A stretch of 64,000 nt of DNA from Beijerinckiaceae bacterium (lineage in GTDB: Bacteria; Pseudomonadota; Alphaproteobacteria; Rhizobiales; Beijerinckiaceae): contig WSYC01000003.1 in the NCBI GenBank assembly GCA_009773635.1, positions 1 to 64,000 of the forward strand. The letters run 5' to 3'. The notes below the pieces were generated by a model. It was not told the DNA's origin. It did not search any database and worked only from the letters and a program-made list of their open reading frames with translations. Positions 56,325 through 64,000 of this stretch are shown here, one piece after another. The stretch's first letter is position 1. Each line of letters starts with the position of its first letter. The position numbers and the translations under genes were made by a program.

Positions 56325-57620
56325 ATGTCAAACCAGAACAGTCACCCCGATCTGCAAACGCCGATCGCCTTCGATGGCGATCATCGCCACCTGTTTGTTG
56401 GCTCAGGGAAGGGCGCATCCGGCCATATTCTTCATTGCAACTACTACAACAACTATCTGCAACGGACGATCTGGTATGACGCCCGCGAGTTTGCGAGCGG
56501 CCAGGATATACTGATCGGTGCCGGCGCCGAACAGGCTTACTATGGCCTGTCCCGCCTGTTTGCGGATCTGCAGCTGAAAGATATCGCGCAGAAGAAGCAC
56601 TGGGCTTCCCATTTCTACAGCTGGCAGGGTCTTGGTGCACTGGACTTCTCCTCGATCACCGAGAAGGGCGGCGAGATTGCTACCGCCAGCCAGCATTACG
56701 CCGAGGGTTGGCGGCTGCAGTTCGGCAATGCCTCCGAACCTGTCGGCTTGCTGACACAGGGCTGGATTTCCGGTGCCGCCTCCGCGATCTTCGGCATGCC
56801 GCTCGGTGCCTTCGTGCCGAGCCAGTCGAAATGCGCCGCCGTCGGCCCCGACCTCGCCAACGTCTTCCGCATCGTGCCGGGCAAGGCCAGCTTCCCGATC
56901 TATGACGGCAAGGCCGCGCTTCAGCTTTCCGCAAAGCGTGAACCGGTCAAGATCGCGCCGAACAATATCGACGAGGCCGCGGTGATGAACGCCGTGTTCA
57001 CGCTGCCGCTCTTCGGCTCGCCGAAGGTTGCGGGTGGGCTCATCAAGCAGTTCGACGTGATGATCTCGTGGTTGCCGCACCTCTATTATGACCGGGTGAG
57101 CTTCGAGTGCATCCATGAGGGTGAGCGCCGTTTCGGGGTCGATGGCCGCGAGGCTGTCGAGGTCCTGCTGGAGGAGGCAGGGCATCGCTGCGCCTTCCGC
57201 ACCTTCGGCGGCATCTGGCGCTCGATGGAATGGGCCGCCGTGGTCGAACCGATGTGCAAGACCCGCGAGGATTGGGTGCATGGCATGGGCGCGATCGCCA
57301 ACTGCGCCGGCTGGGGCCGGATCGAATGCACGCGCCTGACCAAGGACGAAGCCGAGTTCGTCGTGCACGACGATTACGAGAGCGTCGGCTACACCGCGCT
57401 CTACGGCAAGGCGGCCTTCGCGCCGAGCTACCTGCTCAAGGGCGGGTTCCGGGGCATCATGAACCTCGTCTACAACGGCGATATCCAGTCCAAGCCGATG
57501 CTGACGGAGGAATACTACAACCGCCTCTGCCAGCGCCCGGATGCTTTTGTGACCGATGTCGTCAAGTCGGCCGCGCAGGGCAGCCCGGTTTCCGTGTTCC
57601 ACGTCCATCGTCGGGGCTGA
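56325..57620 (+). CDS. V4R/DUF5943-like protein (431 aa), function unknown
   Basis: This soluble protein appears to have two parts. The N-terminal third contains SGHILHCNYYNNYLQRTI and AGAEQAYYGLSRLF, which recall the opening of V4R-domain proteins. The C-terminal part (GAIANCAGWGRIECTRLT, then YTALYGKAAFAPSYLLKGGF and SPVSVFHVHRRG) resembles a second V4R-like or DUF5943 module. V4R domains bind small hydrophobic or tetrapyrrole ligands. The assignment is by memory of motifs and is moderate. Several Trp and Cys residues may be structural. Expression with the 69- and 144-residue genes is suggested by close spacing; the next start is two bases past its stop. Confidence 0.6.
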   Translation: MSNQNSHPDLQTPIAFDGDHRHLFVGSGKGASGHILHCNYYNNYLQRTIWYDAREFASGQDILIGAGAEQAYYGLSRLFADLQLKDIAQKKHWASHFYSWQGLGALDFSSITEKGGEIATASQHYAEGWRLQFGNASEPVGLLTQGWISGAASAIFGMPLGAFVPSQSKCAAVGPDLANVFRIVPGKASFPIYDGKAALQLSAKREPVKIAPNNIDEAAVMNAVFTLPLFGSPKVAGGLIKQFDVMISWLPHLYYDRVSFECIHEGERRFGVDGREAVEVLLEEAGHRCAFRTFGGIWRSMEWAAVVEPMCKTREDWVHGMGAIANCAGWGRIECTRLTKDEAEFVVHDDYESVGYTALYGKAAFAPSYLLKGGFRGIMNLVYNGDIQSKPMLTEEYYNRLCQRPDAFVTDVVKSAAQGSPVSVFHVHRRG

Positions 57621-58373: not shown

Positions 58374-59312
58374 TCATGGAAGATTTGAGAGCACTTTTCC
58401 GTCTTCCAGCACAAAAATCGCGTTGAGGCCCAACGCCTGCGCCATTTTTGGACCGCGCTGCTCGCCCATGACCAGCAAGGTCGTCGCCATGGCGTCTGCC
58501 TCCATGCAGGTGCCCGCCAGCACGGTCACGGAAACGAGTTTGTTGTTGAGCGGAAGCCCGGTTTTCGGGTCCATCGTGTGCGAAATGCGCCCATTGGCGC
58601 TATCGCGGAACTGGCGATAGCTGCCGGAAGTCGCAACGGCGACATCCGTAAGGGCAAGAACACCCATCGCCGCGCGTCGGTCAGGTTCGGGGCGTTCAAC
58701 GGCGATCGCCCAGAGTTCTCCATCGGGCTTTGCGCCTTGCGCGCGCATTTCGCCGTCAATTCCGACCAGCCATGAGGGGATTTCGAACCGGTCGAGGGCG
58801 CGGGCCAGTTCATCGACGCCAAACCCCTTGGCGATACCGGAAAGATCGAGCGACACCGGTCCGAGACGACGGGCGCGATGATGGCCGTGATCGAGTTCCA
58901 GCAGGCCGCCCGCCGAGACAGGCGATGCGCCGGCCCTTGCCGCGCTGGCAGCCGGATCTGGGTCTCCCGGCATGGCGCCAAATCCGTGTTTTGCGACGAG
59001 ATCGCCGACCGCCATATCAAAGGCACCACCCGACAGCCGCCCGATCCGCAGTCCTTCGGCCAGCACCTGTCCGAGTTCGCGGGGAACCTCGACCCACGCG
59101 CCGATCGATGCCCGGTTCAGCCGGTTGAGATCGGAGTCCGGCTTCCATGTGGACATCTGCCGGTCCACGCGATCAACCGCGGCAAACAAGGCGTTGGCAA
59201 TTGGCGCGGTATCGCGGTTCGCAGGCGCGTAGAACGTTGCTGAATAGCGCGTGCCCATGGTCGCACCGTTCAACACATGGCGATGAAGGGGTGGCTCAGT
59301 AGATGTCTTCAC
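58374..59312 (-). CDS. apbE: FAD:protein FMN transferase (ApbE family)
   Basis: This enzyme (312 residues) transfers FMN from FAD to a Thr/Ser of target proteins. It has the family opening NGATMGTRYSATFYAP, SLDLSGIAKGFGVD, DVAVATSGSYRQF, ISHTMDPKTGLPL and the Mg-site EADAMATTLLVMG. GTG 59312 is chosen because AAGGA precedes it and it overlaps the reductase gene by 17 bases. From this start no signal peptide or lipobox is visible, which is unusual because most ApbE proteins act in the periplasm. It is the last gene of the reductase operon, and its likely substrate is the DUF2271-like protein two genes upstream. Confidence 0.88.
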   Translation of the reverse strand: MKTSTEPPLHRHVLNGATMGTRYSATFYAPANRDTAPIANALFAAVDRVDRQMSTWKPDSDLNRLNRASIGAWVEVPRELGQVLAEGLRIGRLSGGAFDMAVGDLVAKHGFGAMPGDPDPAASAARAGASPVSAGGLLELDHGHHRARRLGPVSLDLSGIAKGFGVDELARALDRFEIPSWLVGIDGEMRAQGAKPDGELWAIAVERPEPDRRAAMGVLALTDVAVATSGSYRQFRDSANGRISHTMDPKTGLPLNNKLVSVTVLAGTCMEADAMATTLLVMGEQRGPKMAQALGLNAIFVLEDGKVLSNLP

Positions 59313-61509
59313 AGTAGCGTCCTTCTTGCCGCAACGTCGAAAGATCGCTTCCCAACTTGCCGAGAATGGCGTTGACAGCGCGCGCAACCTCCTGGCCCAT
59401 GTCGCGCCCGCCGCAGACCATGATCTCAGCACCCTGTCCGATCATCTCAGTGATCGGCGTGGCATTTGCGAGAATTTCGCTCTGCACATAGCGCCCGCCC
59501 GAAGTGCGCGAGAACGCCGCGTGCAGTGCGGTCAGGCGTCGATCCCTCAGGCATTGCGCCAACTCGTTTTCGTAGAGGAAATCCGATTTCGGGCTTCGCC
59601 CGCCCCAGTAAAGGTGAACCGGGCGGCACCCCGCATTCTGGCGAATGAAGCCCATCAGCGGCGCAATACCCGCGCCGGCGCCAACGAGGATCAGGGGTGT
59701 TCTCGCGCGCGAGGGCCGGAAGGCGGGATTGGGCCGGATGAAGGCGTTGATGCGCTCCCCAGGCTTCAGGTCGTGCAGGAACCCCGAGCAAAGGCCGCCG
59801 GGCTGCTTGCGGACACAGATTTCGAGAAATCCGTCCTTGCGCGAGGAAGCGAGGGAATAGAAGCGCGGAACATGACTGCCGGGCGGCAGGATACCGACGA
59901 GATCGCCGGCTTCGAATGCCGGCAGGCGTGAACGCCGGAAAAATCGCGCGAACCCGTTCCTGCTCCCTTCTTGCGGCACGGTAAAGCGCTGGATGGCCGT
60001 CGCGGCCTGAACATCGGCGCCGTAATCTGTTCGCGTTTCAAGCGCGAATGAACGGGTGGCGGGGCGTGCCGCCACATGGTTGAGCGTGAGGTCAATGCCC
60101 ATCGCTGCGCCGAGCAGCCTGCCCCAGGCGGCGAAGTCCTGCGCCGATTGCCGGTCGATCCGGTGAAGGCCGAGCATTGCGGGAAAGCCTTTGGCCTCCA
60201 GTGCTGCTCCGACAGCTTCCGCATAGCGGCAGAATTTCGGGAAGGCCCGATCCCCGAATCCCAGAACCGCCACAGGAAGCGGTTTGGCGAAGGTTTCAAG
60301 CCGGGCGAGGAAGCTTTTGGCGGAGGCCGGAGCATCGCCGTCGCCATAGGTCGCGGTGAGGATGATCATGCGGCGCGCGTTTGGGTAGCTTTTGGCCAGC
60401 GCATTCATCGGTGCGGCGTGAACGCTCTGGCCGGATTTCACCAGCGCAGCATGGAGCGTGGCGGCAAAACCCCAGGTGCTGTTACCCTCAGTGCCGACAA
60501 GCAGGATGGTTTCGGCGGCACCTGCGCTGGCATTGCGGGGGATGCGCACGCTTGCCTTCTGCCGCTGCCACCAGATCAGACCGCCGGTGAACGCAAAGAA
60601 CGGCACGGCCAGTGCACAAAGCCCGAGCAGCAACGCGAGCGGCCAAAGGCCCTGCCCGGTGTGAAGCATATAGATCATTTCATGGATGCGCCGGGCAGCG
60701 CCATGCGGCTCGAAGCCGAGGGCTTCGCCCGTGGCAGCATCGATCTGCGTCACGCCCTCGCCGGTGGTCAGCGTATAGGTGTCCGTGAGATCGGCGGAAT
60801 AAGGGAAGGTCAATTCGCGGAGATCCTTGAGATCGATGCCCTTGAGTGCGCCGATCTCCTGCACGGCGAGGCGCGGGCCACCGCTGCCGCTGGCTGTCGG
60901 CGCACTCTGGTTCGATCCATCCGGCAGGATCTCGAAGGTCGAGAGCGAGAGATAAATGCCGCTCAAGGATGTGACCAGCAGGCCGATCATGGCGAGACGG
61001 CCAAGGTCAGCATGCCATTTCTGAACCGGCGTGCCACGGGCCGGGCGCAGCAGCGCGCGATAACCGCCAAGCCGCGCGGCCAGCAGCATCGTGCCGGAAA
61101 TCGTCAGAAGCAACATCAGCGCTGCGCCGATCCCCACCGCGATGCGCCCTGCATCGCCCATCAGCAAGGTGCGGTGCAGGTTGGTGACAAAGCGCGTGAA
61201 CCCGGCCGGGGCGTGCGGGCCAAGCACCTTGAAGCTGTGGGGATCGACAATGTTCGCCCCCGCCTTCTCGCCGTCGAAGAAGGTGACGACAATCGAGCCC
61301 GAAGGTGTCTGCCGGATCTTGTCGATCTCCGGATATTGCGACTGGATCAGCCCCGCGAACGTGGCCACATCGATGTCGCCGGCCTCCACCACCGGTGCGG
61401 AAAACCGCTCGCGCGCCGGTTCAATGGCGAGGAATGCACCTGTGATGGCAACAAGAGCGAGAAGCAGGCCGGCCACAAGCCCCGGCAGCGAATGGATCTG
61501 GCGCACCAT
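59296..61509 (-). CDS. PepSY-TM / flavodoxin / FAD-NAD(P)H reductase fusion (membrane electron-transfer protein)
   Basis: This 737-residue protein has an N-terminal PepSY_TM half and a C-terminal diflavin reductase. The membrane half has helices near 10-30, 120-145, 170-190 and 290-315, with conserved histidines (QIHSLPG, NLHRTLLMG, KWHADLG, IHEMIYMLHTG) that could ligate heme as in PiuB/FoxB-type proteins. The cytosolic half has a flavodoxin domain (GTEGNSTWG; TATYGDGDAP; GFGDRAFPKFC), FAD-binding RFYSLASS, and NAD(P)-binding LVGAGAGIAPLMGF with MVCGGRDMG. It should carry electrons from NAD(P)H across the inner membrane. It sits between the DUF2271-like and apbE genes. Confidence 0.88.
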   Translation of the reverse strand: MVRQIHSLPGLVAGLLLALVAITGAFLAIEPARERFSAPVVEAGDIDVATFAGLIQSQYPEIDKIRQTPSGSIVVTFFDGEKAGANIVDPHSFKVLGPHAPAGFTRFVTNLHRTLLMGDAGRIAVGIGAALMLLLTISGTMLLAARLGGYRALLRPARGTPVQKWHADLGRLAMIGLLVTSLSGIYLSLSTFEILPDGSNQSAPTASGSGGPRLAVQEIGALKGIDLKDLRELTFPYSADLTDTYTLTTGEGVTQIDAATGEALGFEPHGAARRIHEMIYMLHTGQGLWPLALLLGLCALAVPFFAFTGGLIWWQRQKASVRIPRNASAGAAETILLVGTEGNSTWGFAATLHAALVKSGQSVHAAPMNALAKSYPNARRMIILTATYGDGDAPASAKSFLARLETFAKPLPVAVLGFGDRAFPKFCRYAEAVGAALEAKGFPAMLGLHRIDRQSAQDFAAWGRLLGAAMGIDLTLNHVAARPATRSFALETRTDYGADVQAATAIQRFTVPQEGSRNGFARFFRRSRLPAFEAGDLVGILPPGSHVPRFYSLASSRKDGFLEICVRKQPGGLCSGFLHDLKPGERINAFIRPNPAFRPSRARTPLILVGAGAGIAPLMGFIRQNAGCRPVHLYWGGRSPKSDFLYENELAQCLRDRRLTALHAAFSRTSGGRYVQSEILANATPITEMIGQGAEIMVCGGRDMGQEVARAVNAILGKLGSDLSTLRQEGRYCEDIY

Positions 61510-61530
61510 GGTGAGAGCTTTCTGTCCGGA

Positions 61531-62019
61531 TCACATGTCGATGGTCAGGGAGCGCACATAGCCCTTGCCGGCGATGGGCTTGCCGATATTGCCGCTGGTG
61601 AGCGGTGCCACCACGTCGGCAGGGATGTCGTTTTCCTTCTCCACCGCGCTGTCGACGCGGATCTGGTAACCGGCGTCGATCAGGGCATCGGCGATATCCA
61701 CGCTCACCTTGAGGGTGGTTCCCGCGCCGACACTGGCACCGGTAGTGCCATCGATCCGCCCGCCCGATTGCCGGAACCAGCCGGCGAGGTGCTTGTGATA
61801 CTTGGCCTTCGAACCGGCCACGCGGATGGTTTTCTGCAATTTACCGCTGGCATCGGTGAGGTAGATCGCGAGATAGGCCCCATCGCCGCCATAGTTTTTC
61901 AGCGTCGTCGTCAGCCGCACCATGCGCGCTTCGGCGGTTGCGGGCAGGGCTGCGGTCGCCAGCACGGCAAGTGGCAGGGCAAGCGCGGCGTTCTGACGGA
62001 AAGATCTGGAATTCGACAT
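61531..62019 (-). CDS. Secreted DUF2271-like protein with a predicted FMN-attachment motif
   Basis: This 162-residue protein starts at ATG 62019, with AGGAGA upstream. A Sec signal peptide with hydrophobic core 11-27 ends at ATAEA (about residue 31). The mature part has LKNYGGDGAYLAIYLTD, HKHLAGWFRQSGG and YQIRVDSAVEKENDIPADV, resembling DUF2271. D90-G-T-T-G-A-S96 fits the ApbE target consensus D-x-x-(S/T)-G-A-(S/T), so S96 (or its neighbour) may carry phosphoester-linked FMN. It precedes the reductase gene by 21 bases. Predicted role: periplasmic flavin electron carrier or terminal reductase. Confidence 0.82.
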   Translation of the reverse strand: MSNSRSFRQNAALALPLAVLATAALPATAEARMVRLTTTLKNYGGDGAYLAIYLTDASGKLQKTIRVAGSKAKYHKHLAGWFRQSGGRIDGTTGASVGAGTTLKVSVDIADALIDAGYQIRVDSAVEKENDIPADVVAPLTSGNIGKPIAGKGYVRSLTIDM

Positions 62020-62110
62020 GAAGGTCTCCTGTGCGGATCGAGTGCAGGAGAGATGCGCCTTCAAACTGACGCGGCGCTGAAGCCGATGCAGAAAGCTGTT
62101 CAGCCGGATG

Positions 62111-63475
62111 TCAGGTTTGGACGGGGCGTGGCAGCCGGATGCGCGCTTCAAATCCATCCGGGAGGCCGGACGCCGGGGATAGCAGGTCCAGCCTGCTGCC
62201 CACACCGGCGGCGATCGTGGCAGCAATCGCAAGGCCCAGCCCTGAGCCCTCGGTTTCAGCGGTGCCCCGCTCGAAGCGATGGGTCAGACGATCGAGAACC
62301 TCACGCGGGACAATCGCTCCGCGATTGGAAACCGAGAACAAGGCGTCAACATCGAGCGATATTTTAATAGGCTGCCGGGAATCACCGTGTTTCAGGGCAT
62401 TTTCGATGAGGTTGCGCGCCAGAATGGCAAAGGCATCGATATCGATCAAGGAAACCGTCGTGCCGTTTTCCGGTACTTCAACCTCGATGCGCTCCGCGTG
62501 GGCGGGGCGCCTGGTAAATTCATCGACGATGATATCCAGGACCGGCACGAGATTGGCGGGCTCTTCGGCAACAAGGCCGCTGCCTTCCGCTTTGGCGAGC
62601 TGAAGCAGCTTTTCCGAAAGGCGCGCCAGACGGTGCAAGGCCGCCTCGATCTCGCCGGCGCGCTCGCGAACCGGCCCGTCAATCAGTTCGGAGCGCAAGC
62701 GCTGGGTCTGCGCCAGAGCCGCAGCGACCGGCGTGCGCAATTCGTGCGCGCTGTTGGCGGTGAAGGTCCGCTCGGCGTCGAGCGTGCGCCTCAGCCTTTC
62801 CATCAGACGATTGATGGCTTCGGCGATCGGGCCGATCTCGCCGGGCAACAGCGAGGTGTCGAGCGGCGCAAGGTTACCGCCGTCGCGATGCTCGATGTCA
62901 TCGCGCAGGCGTACCACGGGCCGGAATGCCAGGGCGATCATGCTCCATGTGCCGAGAATGCCGAGAGGTAGCATTACGGCCAGCGGCCAGACGAGCATCT
63001 TCACGGCGTCGAGCAACGCCTTCTGCCGGTGCCCGGGACGTTCGGCGGCGGTGACGATGATCGTGCCCTTCACCGCATTCTCGGTGTAGAAACGGGTGTT
63101 CTGCCCGCTCAGGAAGCCATGGGCAGGGTTATGCGGGAAGTGTTCCGGTTCAGCATCGTGCGATTGCAGCAGCACCCGGCCTTCGGCGTCGCGCACGATG
63201 TAGGTGATGAATTCCTTGTGCTCGCCCACCGATGGTAATTGCTGCGGCGCGGCGTCCCCGCTCTCCCGGTTGAGAATTTCCGTGTAGGCCAGCGGCAGCA
63301 CGCGCTGCACGACCTCCTGCAAGGCGCTGTCGAAGACTTCATCGATTTCCTCGCGCAGGATGAAACCGGCCGCCAGTGTTCCCGCCAGCCAGAGAGCGGT
63401 AAAGCCGAGGGTGAGTATCAGGCTCAACCGACGCTGGAGGCTGCCTCTGGGGGGGAATAGTCGCGCTGTCTTCAT
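62111..63475 (-). CDS. Sensor histidine kinase (QseC/PmrB-like, EnvZ-OmpR class)
   Basis: This inner-membrane kinase has 454 residues. ATG 63475 (MKTARLFPP) lies five bases after the regulator's stop. Helices are near 20-42 and 165-190, enclosing a periplasmic domain of about 120 residues with acidic and His-rich patches (HDAEPEHFPHNPAH) that could sense a metal. A HAMP-like linker, the H-box H244 in NSAHELRTPVAAALAQ, an N-box NLIENALKHGD and a G-box GSGLGLAIAATIA follow. It phosphorylates the adjacent regulator and probably controls the downstream reductase operon. Confidence 0.9.
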   Translation of the reverse strand: MKTARLFPPRGSLQRRLSLILTLGFTALWLAGTLAAGFILREEIDEVFDSALQEVVQRVLPLAYTEILNRESGDAAPQQLPSVGEHKEFITYIVRDAEGRVLLQSHDAEPEHFPHNPAHGFLSGQNTRFYTENAVKGTIIVTAAERPGHRQKALLDAVKMLVWPLAVMLPLGILGTWSMIALAFRPVVRLRDDIEHRDGGNLAPLDTSLLPGEIGPIAEAINRLMERLRRTLDAERTFTANSAHELRTPVAAALAQTQRLRSELIDGPVRERAGEIEAALHRLARLSEKLLQLAKAEGSGLVAEEPANLVPVLDIIVDEFTRRPAHAERIEVEVPENGTTVSLIDIDAFAILARNLIENALKHGDSRQPIKISLDVDALFSVSNRGAIVPREVLDRLTHRFERGTAETEGSGLGLAIAATIAAGVGSRLDLLSPASGLPDGFEARIRLPRPVQT

Positions 63476-63480
63476 GCTGC

Positions 63481-64000
63481 TCAGGCACCGCCGGGCTGAC
63501 CAAGGCGATAGCCGAGGCCGCGCTCCGTGCATATTGTGTCCGCTCCGAGTTTTTTCCGGAGGCGCGCGACATAGACTTCGATGGTGTTGCTCTCAACCTC
63601 GGCGCCGAATGTATAGAGCCGCTCTTCAAGCTGTCCCTTCGAGAGCAGCATGCCCGGCCGCTGGAGGAATGCCTCGAACAGGCTCCATTCGCGTGCCGTC
63701 AGGGCGATCTGGCGTCCGGCCCTGCGGATGGATCGGGCGGCCATGTCGATGGTGAGTTCGCCGAGCTGGACTTCGGGGTTCGGTTTGCCGGCATAGCGCC
63801 GCGCGACCGCGCCAAGACGTGCGGACAATTCATCGAGATCGAACGGCTTGACGAGATAATCGTCCGCTCCGGCATTGAGCCCGGCGATCCTGTCCGAAAC
63901 CTGATCGCGCGCCGTCAGCACGATCACCGGCATGGTGTCGCCGGCCTGCCGACGGTGGCGCAGGAAATCGAGGCCGCGTCCGTCCGGCAACATGAGGTCG
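63481..64000 (-). CDS. OmpR-family response regulator (partial, runs off the window)
   Basis: This is the C-terminal part of a two-component regulator. The frame is open to the right edge and begins here with DLMLPDGRG, so the phospho-acceptor Asp is the first complete codon (63997-63999). The receiver continues with IVLTARD and DDYLVKPFDLDEL. The winged-helix DNA-binding domain has LTAREWSLFEAFLQRPG and NTIEVYVARLRKKLG, then GLGYRL. About the first 50 residues lie outside the window. It heads the operon of kinase, DUF2271-like protein, PepSY reductase and ApbE, and is the likely activator of it. Confidence 0.93.
   Translation of the reverse strand, partial: DLMLPDGRGLDFLRHRRQAGDTMPVIVLTARDQVSDRIAGLNAGADDYLVKPFDLDELSARLGAVARRYAGKPNPEVQLGELTIDMAARSIRRAGRQIALTAREWSLFEAFLQRPGMLLSKGQLEERLYTFGAEVESNTIEVYVARLRKKLGADTICTERGLGYRLGQPGGA

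Follow-up and report, generated by a model that had tools for sequence, protein, structure and literature searches.

How might a protein bound for export come to carry a covalently attached flavin when the enzyme that would attach it has no visible export signal? This question is raised by a locus of a Beijerinckiaceae bacterium (assembly GCA_009773635.1; 3.24-Mb genome, 98.7% complete, hereafter the window genome), lying at the end of the first 64,000 nucleotides (nt) of contig WSYC01000003.1. This stretch is referred to as the window, and coordinates above 64000 belong to the same contig beyond it. Five minus-strand genes encode here a response regulator, a sensor histidine kinase, a secreted DUF2271 protein, a PepSY_TM diflavin reductase and ApbE, which transfers flavin mononucleotide (FMN) from flavin adenine dinucleotide (FAD) to proteins; Pfam bears out both the order and the families that an earlier, sequence-only reading had given them. 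The operon is real, and the unit has six genes, with a secreted PepSY_2 protein, encoded beyond the window, as an added member. This six-gene unit with its operators is new, as is the contrast between a modifying enzyme without a leader and a target that is secreted, neither having been found described in the open-licence part of PubMed Central (PMC). It is the second that is unexpected.

The target, the enzyme and the site of flavin attachment

The DUF2271 protein (162 residues; 61531..62019, minus strand, from ATG 62019; PF10029, E 4.8e-29) begins, by hydropathy, with a Sec-type leader, and thus shows the signal peptide asked of a target gene in published flavinylation systems. Its DGTTGAS stretch occupies residues 90–96, where the sequence-only reading had placed it (codons at 61732..61752, minus strand), and the TGAS within it agrees with the [S/T]GA[S/T] site of the PepSY-like flavinylation systems. 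Conservation was followed in 80 named loci from alpha-, beta- and gammaproteobacteria, the best 80 of at least 531 confirmed relatives from a scan of GTDB genomes with a reductase alignment; because the best matches were kept, this set is biased to close relatives. In the alignment of DUF2271 homologues, the check set for the motif by that reading, G-A-S is conserved in 79/80, and 78 match G.[TSA]GA[STC], each with S, the other two having SITGAS (L103) and GITGGS (L048). Residue 93, however, may be T, S or A. Therefore, S96 is the predicted FMN acceptor, and of the two residues formerly proposed, S96 and T93, only the first is favoured. There is also a published precedent, as the DUF2271 protein of another species is flavinylated at [S/T]GA[S/T] by its cognate ApbE, and a change of the site abolished the modification (PMC8238504; all papers are cited here from excerpts of their text). 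The AlphaFold model of the protein (pLDDT 89) consists mainly of strands and holds the motif in a loop, within its least confident block; no solved relatives were found by sequence (best E 0.28) or by fold (best E 0.045).

ApbE might also act on a cytosolic target, DUF2271 not being its substrate, as in Klebsiella, where the substrate of a cytoplasmic ApbE is a soluble fumarate reductase (PMC12052999). For this locus such an explanation is very improbable: the FMN_bind domain is absent from the window genome, no ApbE-type motif occurs in the reductases (0/80) or in the kinases, regulators and PepSY_2 proteins scanned, and DUF2271 both holds the motif and travels with ApbE.

The enzyme itself (312 residues; 58374..59312, minus strand) matches PF02424 over its full length (E 2.8e-74), keeps the conserved SHTMDPKTG segment and, when aligned to the solved structure 6nxi, retains the His of SHxxDPxTG. 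Its most likely start, chosen by eye, is GTG 59312 behind AAGAAGG, giving an overlap of 17 nt with the reductase gene; a longer open reading frame (ORF) from 59432 sits within the reductase gene, in another frame. Leaders were scored as the highest 12-residue hydropathy between the first possible start and the domain, with a threshold of 1.9, a measure distinct from SignalP. The threshold was reached by 85/92 DUF2271 proteins and 78/79 PepSY_2 proteins, and by 0/67 operon ApbEs (window included), whose top value is 1.07. None of these 67 shows an N-terminal export signal or a lipobox, unlike ApbEs of the exported, lipoprotein type. In 27/66 loci the open apbE frame reaches back over only the last 34 or 40 nt of the reductase gene, too few to leave room for a leader, and the public annotation of three plasmid records places the apbE start 20 nt inside the reductase gene. 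The absence of an export signal from this ApbE is a point that the sequence-only reading did not include.

The lack of a visible export signal extends to nearly all the DUF2271-linked ApbEs examined. In a phylum-wide sample (40 of 65 genomes above the cut-off, giving 40 DUF2271 loci of ~10 kb each), ApbE was seen in 21 loci and a leader in only one of the 21 (L312); after it, the top score was 1.71. Among ten DUF2271 loci of alphaproteobacteria with a different layout, one ApbE reaches 1.9 (L143), though by eye it has no classical leader. A tree was built by a quick method, with matches below 80 bits or 220 residues and identical cores excluded; in it, the operon ApbEs form one clade (SH-aLRT 96) together with one more leaderless ApbE (L207), close to the ApbEs from other DUF2271 loci and away from most of the rest. 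Two variations of the N-terminus were observed in passing: an ApbE–DUF2271 fusion ORF in L144 (4987-6462), the start of which looks like a leader, and an R-V-L-V-P-like stretch that replaces the leader in the ApbEs of L299, L300, L313, L315, L316, L135, L137 and L140.

A different picture is found where the operon holds no apbE. Among 24 of these 25 loci (L067 was left out), an ApbE is encoded elsewhere in the genome for 23, the exception being L060, whose contig ends beside the reductase gene. The best ApbE of each of these 23 genomes has a leader value of at least 2.0, and 28 of all 30 ApbEs from them are leadered (L185 and L191 score low). Furthermore, 19 of the 23 adjoin a reductase-like ORF, identified as NqrF in 5/5 tested. 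Of the 55 genomes with an operon apbE, 30 were examined, and 11 of them have no other ApbE, whereas Pseudomonas fluorescens FW300-N2E3 (L043), for example, encodes a second one; the window genome and five congeners hold one ApbE each, alongside a single DUF2271 in the window genome. The leaderless ApbE is therefore often the sole enzyme for the sole visible target.

Where, then, would FMN be attached? The boldest reading, tentative and somewhat short of an even call, is that FMN is loaded in the cytosol onto the unfolded DUF2271 precursor, which would then pass Sec in its flavinylated form. Lineages with a periplasmic, Nqr-linked ApbE would have dropped the operon copy and would act on the exported form of the same substrate; flavinylation of one substrate family would thus have switched compartment in evolution. 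The missing leader, and the status of sole ApbE in several genomes, both count for cytosolic loading, and small groups attached to a protein are tolerated by Sec. ApbEs that have been truncated are active in the cytosol of E. coli, and some cytosolic targets have an ApbE that is itself cytosolic (PMC12052999). Confidence is held down by two reports, since a cytosolic ApbE failed to replace a periplasmic one in a growth test (PMC12052999), and the DUF2271 study mentions a cognate ApbE truncated in its signal peptide (PMC8238504).

That growth test, in which a truncated, cytosolically expressed ApbE was no substitute, although for a different target, also speaks for another explanation: the operon ApbE could reach the periplasm without a recognisable leader, by an unknown route or by piggy-back, and flavinylation would be periplasmic, as it is in other systems. 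The leadered ApbEs present where the operon has no apbE, at least one DUF2271 partner described with a leader (PMC8238504) and the leadered ApbE of L312 fit this possibility as well. Nevertheless, it is considered rather unlikely, given that the hydrophobic N-terminus is missing from every operon ApbE by a method that detects it in most DUF2271 and nearly all PepSY_2 proteins, and that no signal-free export route was seen.

Should loading before export be correct, the rule that this cofactor is attached outside the cytosol would fail for a large class, as the numerous DUF2271/PepSY clusters (2833) are treated as extracytosolic flavinylation (PMC8238504). Moreover, loading from cytosolic FAD would remove the need for a periplasmic FAD supply.

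A six-gene unit and its operators

Among 61 relatives sampled from the genus, family and order and searched with profile cut-offs, DUF2271 was found in 10 genomes (window genome included), with an eleventh match (G049) below the cut-off, and all ten of them also hold ApbE. The nine other relatives with the whole locus all have the six genes together, in two arrangements. Within the genus, 17 genomes gave DUF2271 in 6, ApbE in 7 and FMN_bind in 0; the seventh of the ApbE genomes, G010, has a completeness of 78%, and its contig of 4.7 kb, located via its ApbE, holds apbE and part of the reductase gene. Over the 80 named loci, with presence thresholds of 300 bits for kinase and regulator, 250 for ApbE, 100 for DUF2271 and 70 for PepSY_2, the counts are 80 for DUF2271, 67 for PepSY_2, 60 for the kinase, 60 for the regulator and 55 for ApbE; the five genes other than apbE occur together in 54/80 loci and all six in 33/80, figures that are lower bounds because contigs that end early score as absent. 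Plasmids, too, carry relatives of the reductase (99 records from environmental bacteria and Enterobacterales, of which 70 are typed as conjugative), which indicates that the trait moves.

Three of the genes would form the control module. The PepSY_2 gene (contig 64322-64597, outside the window; PF13670, E 2.2e-28) encodes a secreted protein of 91 residues and is divergent from the response regulator gene. Only the C-terminal part of the latter lies in the window (63481..64000, minus strand; Response_reg/Trans_reg_C by Pfam), the gene being cut by the window edge and reaching ~ contig 64149, its likely start in the contig sequence past the window. The sensor kinase gene (62111..63475, minus strand; HisKA/HATPase_c by Pfam) most likely starts, by eye, at ATG 63475, just beyond the end of the regulator gene, rather than at 63532; its best NCBIfam match is QseC/PmrB-like, with scores under the cut-offs of those models. 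Just after its first transmembrane helix, an ExxE motif is common among the kinases (E35 in 64/72, E38 in 62/72). As this kinase family often carries an acidic stretch at that place, the motif was set aside as an Fe-sensing motif and is kept as a weak lead only.

A genome-wide pair search located an inverted TTCAG-N6-GTCAG operator pair upstream of the DUF2271 gene (62066..62114, no strand) and a second one between the regulator and PepSY_2 genes (contig 64196-64244, outside the window). The motif occurs twice in the window versus 0.07 expected. In the window genome the inverted pair is present at these two places only, and regulation is therefore directly testable. Across the class, the pair was found in 10/385 genomes, with zero matches in every row of the backward control; in 8 of the 9 non-window genomes it lies between PepSY_2 and the regulator, and in one (G336) elsewhere.

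Control regions in which the PepSY_2 and regulator genes both pass the threshold, lie on opposite strands and are 30-2500 nt apart number 67 (11 of them 965-1649 nt long), and the direct repeat TTCAG-N6-GTCAG is found in 62, in both orientations in 44, while single-base shuffles gave a mean of 0.03 regions with an operator; the regions are related, many of them from Pseudomonas, and are not 67 independent events. An operator stands within 330 nt upstream of DUF2271 in 33/92 loci. Conversely, none stands by DUF2271 in the 19 loci that lack the two-component genes by threshold, although 4 of the 19 have sites elsewhere in the stretch. This distribution provides good evidence that the operon is controlled by the two-component system, which would also control its own genes, through putative operators that the regulator would bind.

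Some counts weigh against this control model. The single 17-nt form occurs four times in the window genome, three at the locus and one elsewhere, with one match in the backward control; it is found 0-4 times per genome in ten genomes in which the profile search detected no DUF2271 versus 2-8 times in ten with it, and 59/92 loci lack an operator within 330 nt of DUF2271. Where PepSY_2 precedes DUF2271, the latter may share the PepSY_2 promoter. The single operator was consequently rejected as a finder of a genome-wide regulon, being non-specific, only the inverted pair being specific. Scanned for promoters and terminators, the control region gave nothing above chance.

A sister module was also observed, in which PepSY_2, regulator, kinase and the same type of operator lie next to cytochrome b561 (L254, L255, L256, L259, L261 and L263). 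Five of the eight pair-bearing loci have no DUF2271 within the 3 kb covered; the second locus of G040 (L263), located via two single operator sites, has none in 10 kb and also holds VIT1.

As for the surroundings of the window locus, the stretch behind PepSY_2 (contig 64720-67079; L003 6721-9080) encodes a small secreted His-rich protein that matches no Pfam family, a protein with a heme domain like that of ethylbenzene dehydrogenase (PF09459) and a weakly matching DUF2231 membrane protein. The last two were rejected as members of the unit, with one occurrence in the 80 named loci (L027) and none in the nine relatives. Further along (L003 9764-12001), an EcoRII-N type restriction gene is adjoined by ORFs that resemble, by eye, a short-patch repair endonuclease and a DNA cytosine methyltransferase. 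On the other side of the operon, a protein of 431 residues (window 56325-57620, plus strand) has V4R as its sole family match, below the cut-off.

The reductase and the probable purpose of the system

The reductase (737 residues; 59296..61509, minus strand) combines PF03929 (E 1.2e-37) with Flavodoxin_1 and NAD_binding_1. Its N-terminal PepSY_TM part holds four long helices, read as membrane spans, and four histidines (H6, H112, H166 and H283, window numbering) that are invariant in 80/80 reductases; in PepSY-like proteins, conserved histidines reportedly hold two hemes (PMC11334425). Sequence and fold both match the C-terminal part to CysJ and P450 reductase. The S-R...V-Q residues are kept in 64/80 reductases and a C-terminal Y or F in 78/80, which we take to be the mark of NADPH (reduced nicotinamide adenine dinucleotide phosphate) use, and NADPH is the predicted donor. 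Together with the DUF2271 motif, the synteny and the operators, these domains and histidines lend support to the route from NAD(P)H through a diflavin part and heme to an exported FMN protein, under two-component control, that the sequence-only reading had outlined.

In the proposed mechanism, the secreted PepSY_2 and the kinase would act as a periplasmic sensing pair, and the regulator would bind the operators at its own divergent promoter and at the DUF2271 promoter, thereby controlling DUF2271, the reductase and ApbE. Once ApbE had put FMN on S96, electrons would pass from cytosolic NADPH to FAD, FMN and b-type hemes, and from these to the periplasmic FMN on Ser96, which would in turn reduce an acceptor outside the membrane. 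The system is thus probably a signal-controlled transmembrane reductase with FMN-DUF2271 as its output, the acceptor being most likely a metal, for instance Fe(III). Within 9 kb of the 80 loci, VIT genes were counted 25 times, ferric-reductase-like genes 19 times and P-type ATPase genes 10 times (BLAST pieces below 40% of the query excluded), and VIT-type genes are present in 5/5 plasmid regions viewed, in one of them as an interpretation of the label DUF125. A metal acceptor is favoured because these genes recur nearby and because related DUF2271/PepSY clusters are iron-linked (PMC8238504, PMC12004947, PMC7190382).

Several points weigh against this assignment. No VIT, ferric-reductase-like or P-type ATPase gene was detected in 20 kb around the window locus; 9 of the 25 VIT loci are from Pseudomonas, and the neighbour counts come without a background rate. 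The PepSY/two-component module DbfQRS of V. cholerae is unresponsive to iron (PMC12714742). The PepSY_TM part has no solved relative by sequence (best E 0.47), and FoxB, a PepSY_TM reductase, is absent among the best 50 of 314 fold matches (E<=0.001), all 50 of which are diflavin enzymes. The function is, moreover, read from sequence and genomic context.

The missing metal transporter at the window locus would suit a different purpose for the same machine, namely the relief of periplasmic oxidative or redox stress, in which the Cys pair of PepSY_2 would sense redox and a periplasmic carrier would be kept reduced. The MsrPQ system, controlled by HprRS, offers a parallel. Both cysteines of PepSY_2 are invariant (79/79, and 10/10 in a later, overlapping set), and in 6/6 loci without DUF2271 in the covered stretch, the same sensor and operator stand beside a cytochrome b561 gene, which adjoins PepSY_2. 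However, the Cys pair may be a mere structural disulfide, and metal-related genes do recur near the operon; redox stress is considered an unlikely but not negligible explanation next to metal reduction.

Comparison with known systems

The locus belongs to the published PepSY-like/DUF2271/ApbE flavinylation systems, of which it is a two-component-controlled variant. These systems are recognised by a PF03929 or PF16357 protein clustered with ApbE, FMN-binding, DUF2271 or DUF3570, and PF03929, ApbE and DUF2271 are all found here over their cut-offs. Meheust et al. (eLife 2021, PMC8238504) described 3220 such clusters, 2833 of them with DUF2271, and 1077 PepSY genes with an NAD-binding domain. Shared with them are the PepSY_TM protein, the DUF2271 protein with [S/T]GA[S/T] and ApbE; on the other hand, the system of the window adds a two-component system of its own along with PepSY_2 and shared operators, its ApbE is leaderless, and there is no DUF4198 among the operon genes scanned. 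The excerpted text of that study makes no mention of two-component control, PepSY_2 or operators ('two-component' occurs once, in a reference, and 'histidine kinase' and 'sensor' do not occur), nor of leaderless ApbEs. For a cluster to be retained there, a signal on a single one of four target genes was enough, and leaderless ApbEs would therefore pass.

The control module resembles the DbfQRS-like modules (Nat Commun 2025, PMC12714742), in which a small secreted PepSY protein lies beside a kinase and a regulator, sometimes on the opposite strand; in V. cholerae, DbfQ binds the sensor domain of DbfS, and the module controls biofilm and envelope responses. Here, such a protein likewise lies within four genes of the kinase and regulator, as it does in 9/9 relatives. 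Unlike DbfQRS, the window-type module holds a PF13670 PepSY_2 with an invariant Cys pair and an operator-linked reductase operon. The DbfQRS study used the PepSY domain entry, and weak matches to PF03413 (PepSY) itself were given by the PepSY_2 of just two relatives (E 0.0045 and 0.007).

The membrane part of the reductase, with its conserved histidines as candidate heme ligands, is like that of the FoxB-type PepSY_TM siderophore reductase (PMC11334425; structure 7ABW). Unlike FoxB, it carries a flavodoxin/FAD/NADPH reductase of its own in the same chain and has a predicted flavinylated protein as its partner. Its flavodoxin and FAD/NADP-type domains are like those of CysJ and P450 reductase, from which it differs in that the diflavin part is fused behind a transmembrane heme domain. 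Finally, the operon ApbE shares the absence of a signal peptide with the cytosolic ApbE of Klebsiella (PMC12052999), but whereas the target of the latter is cytosolic, the apparent target here has a Sec-type leader.

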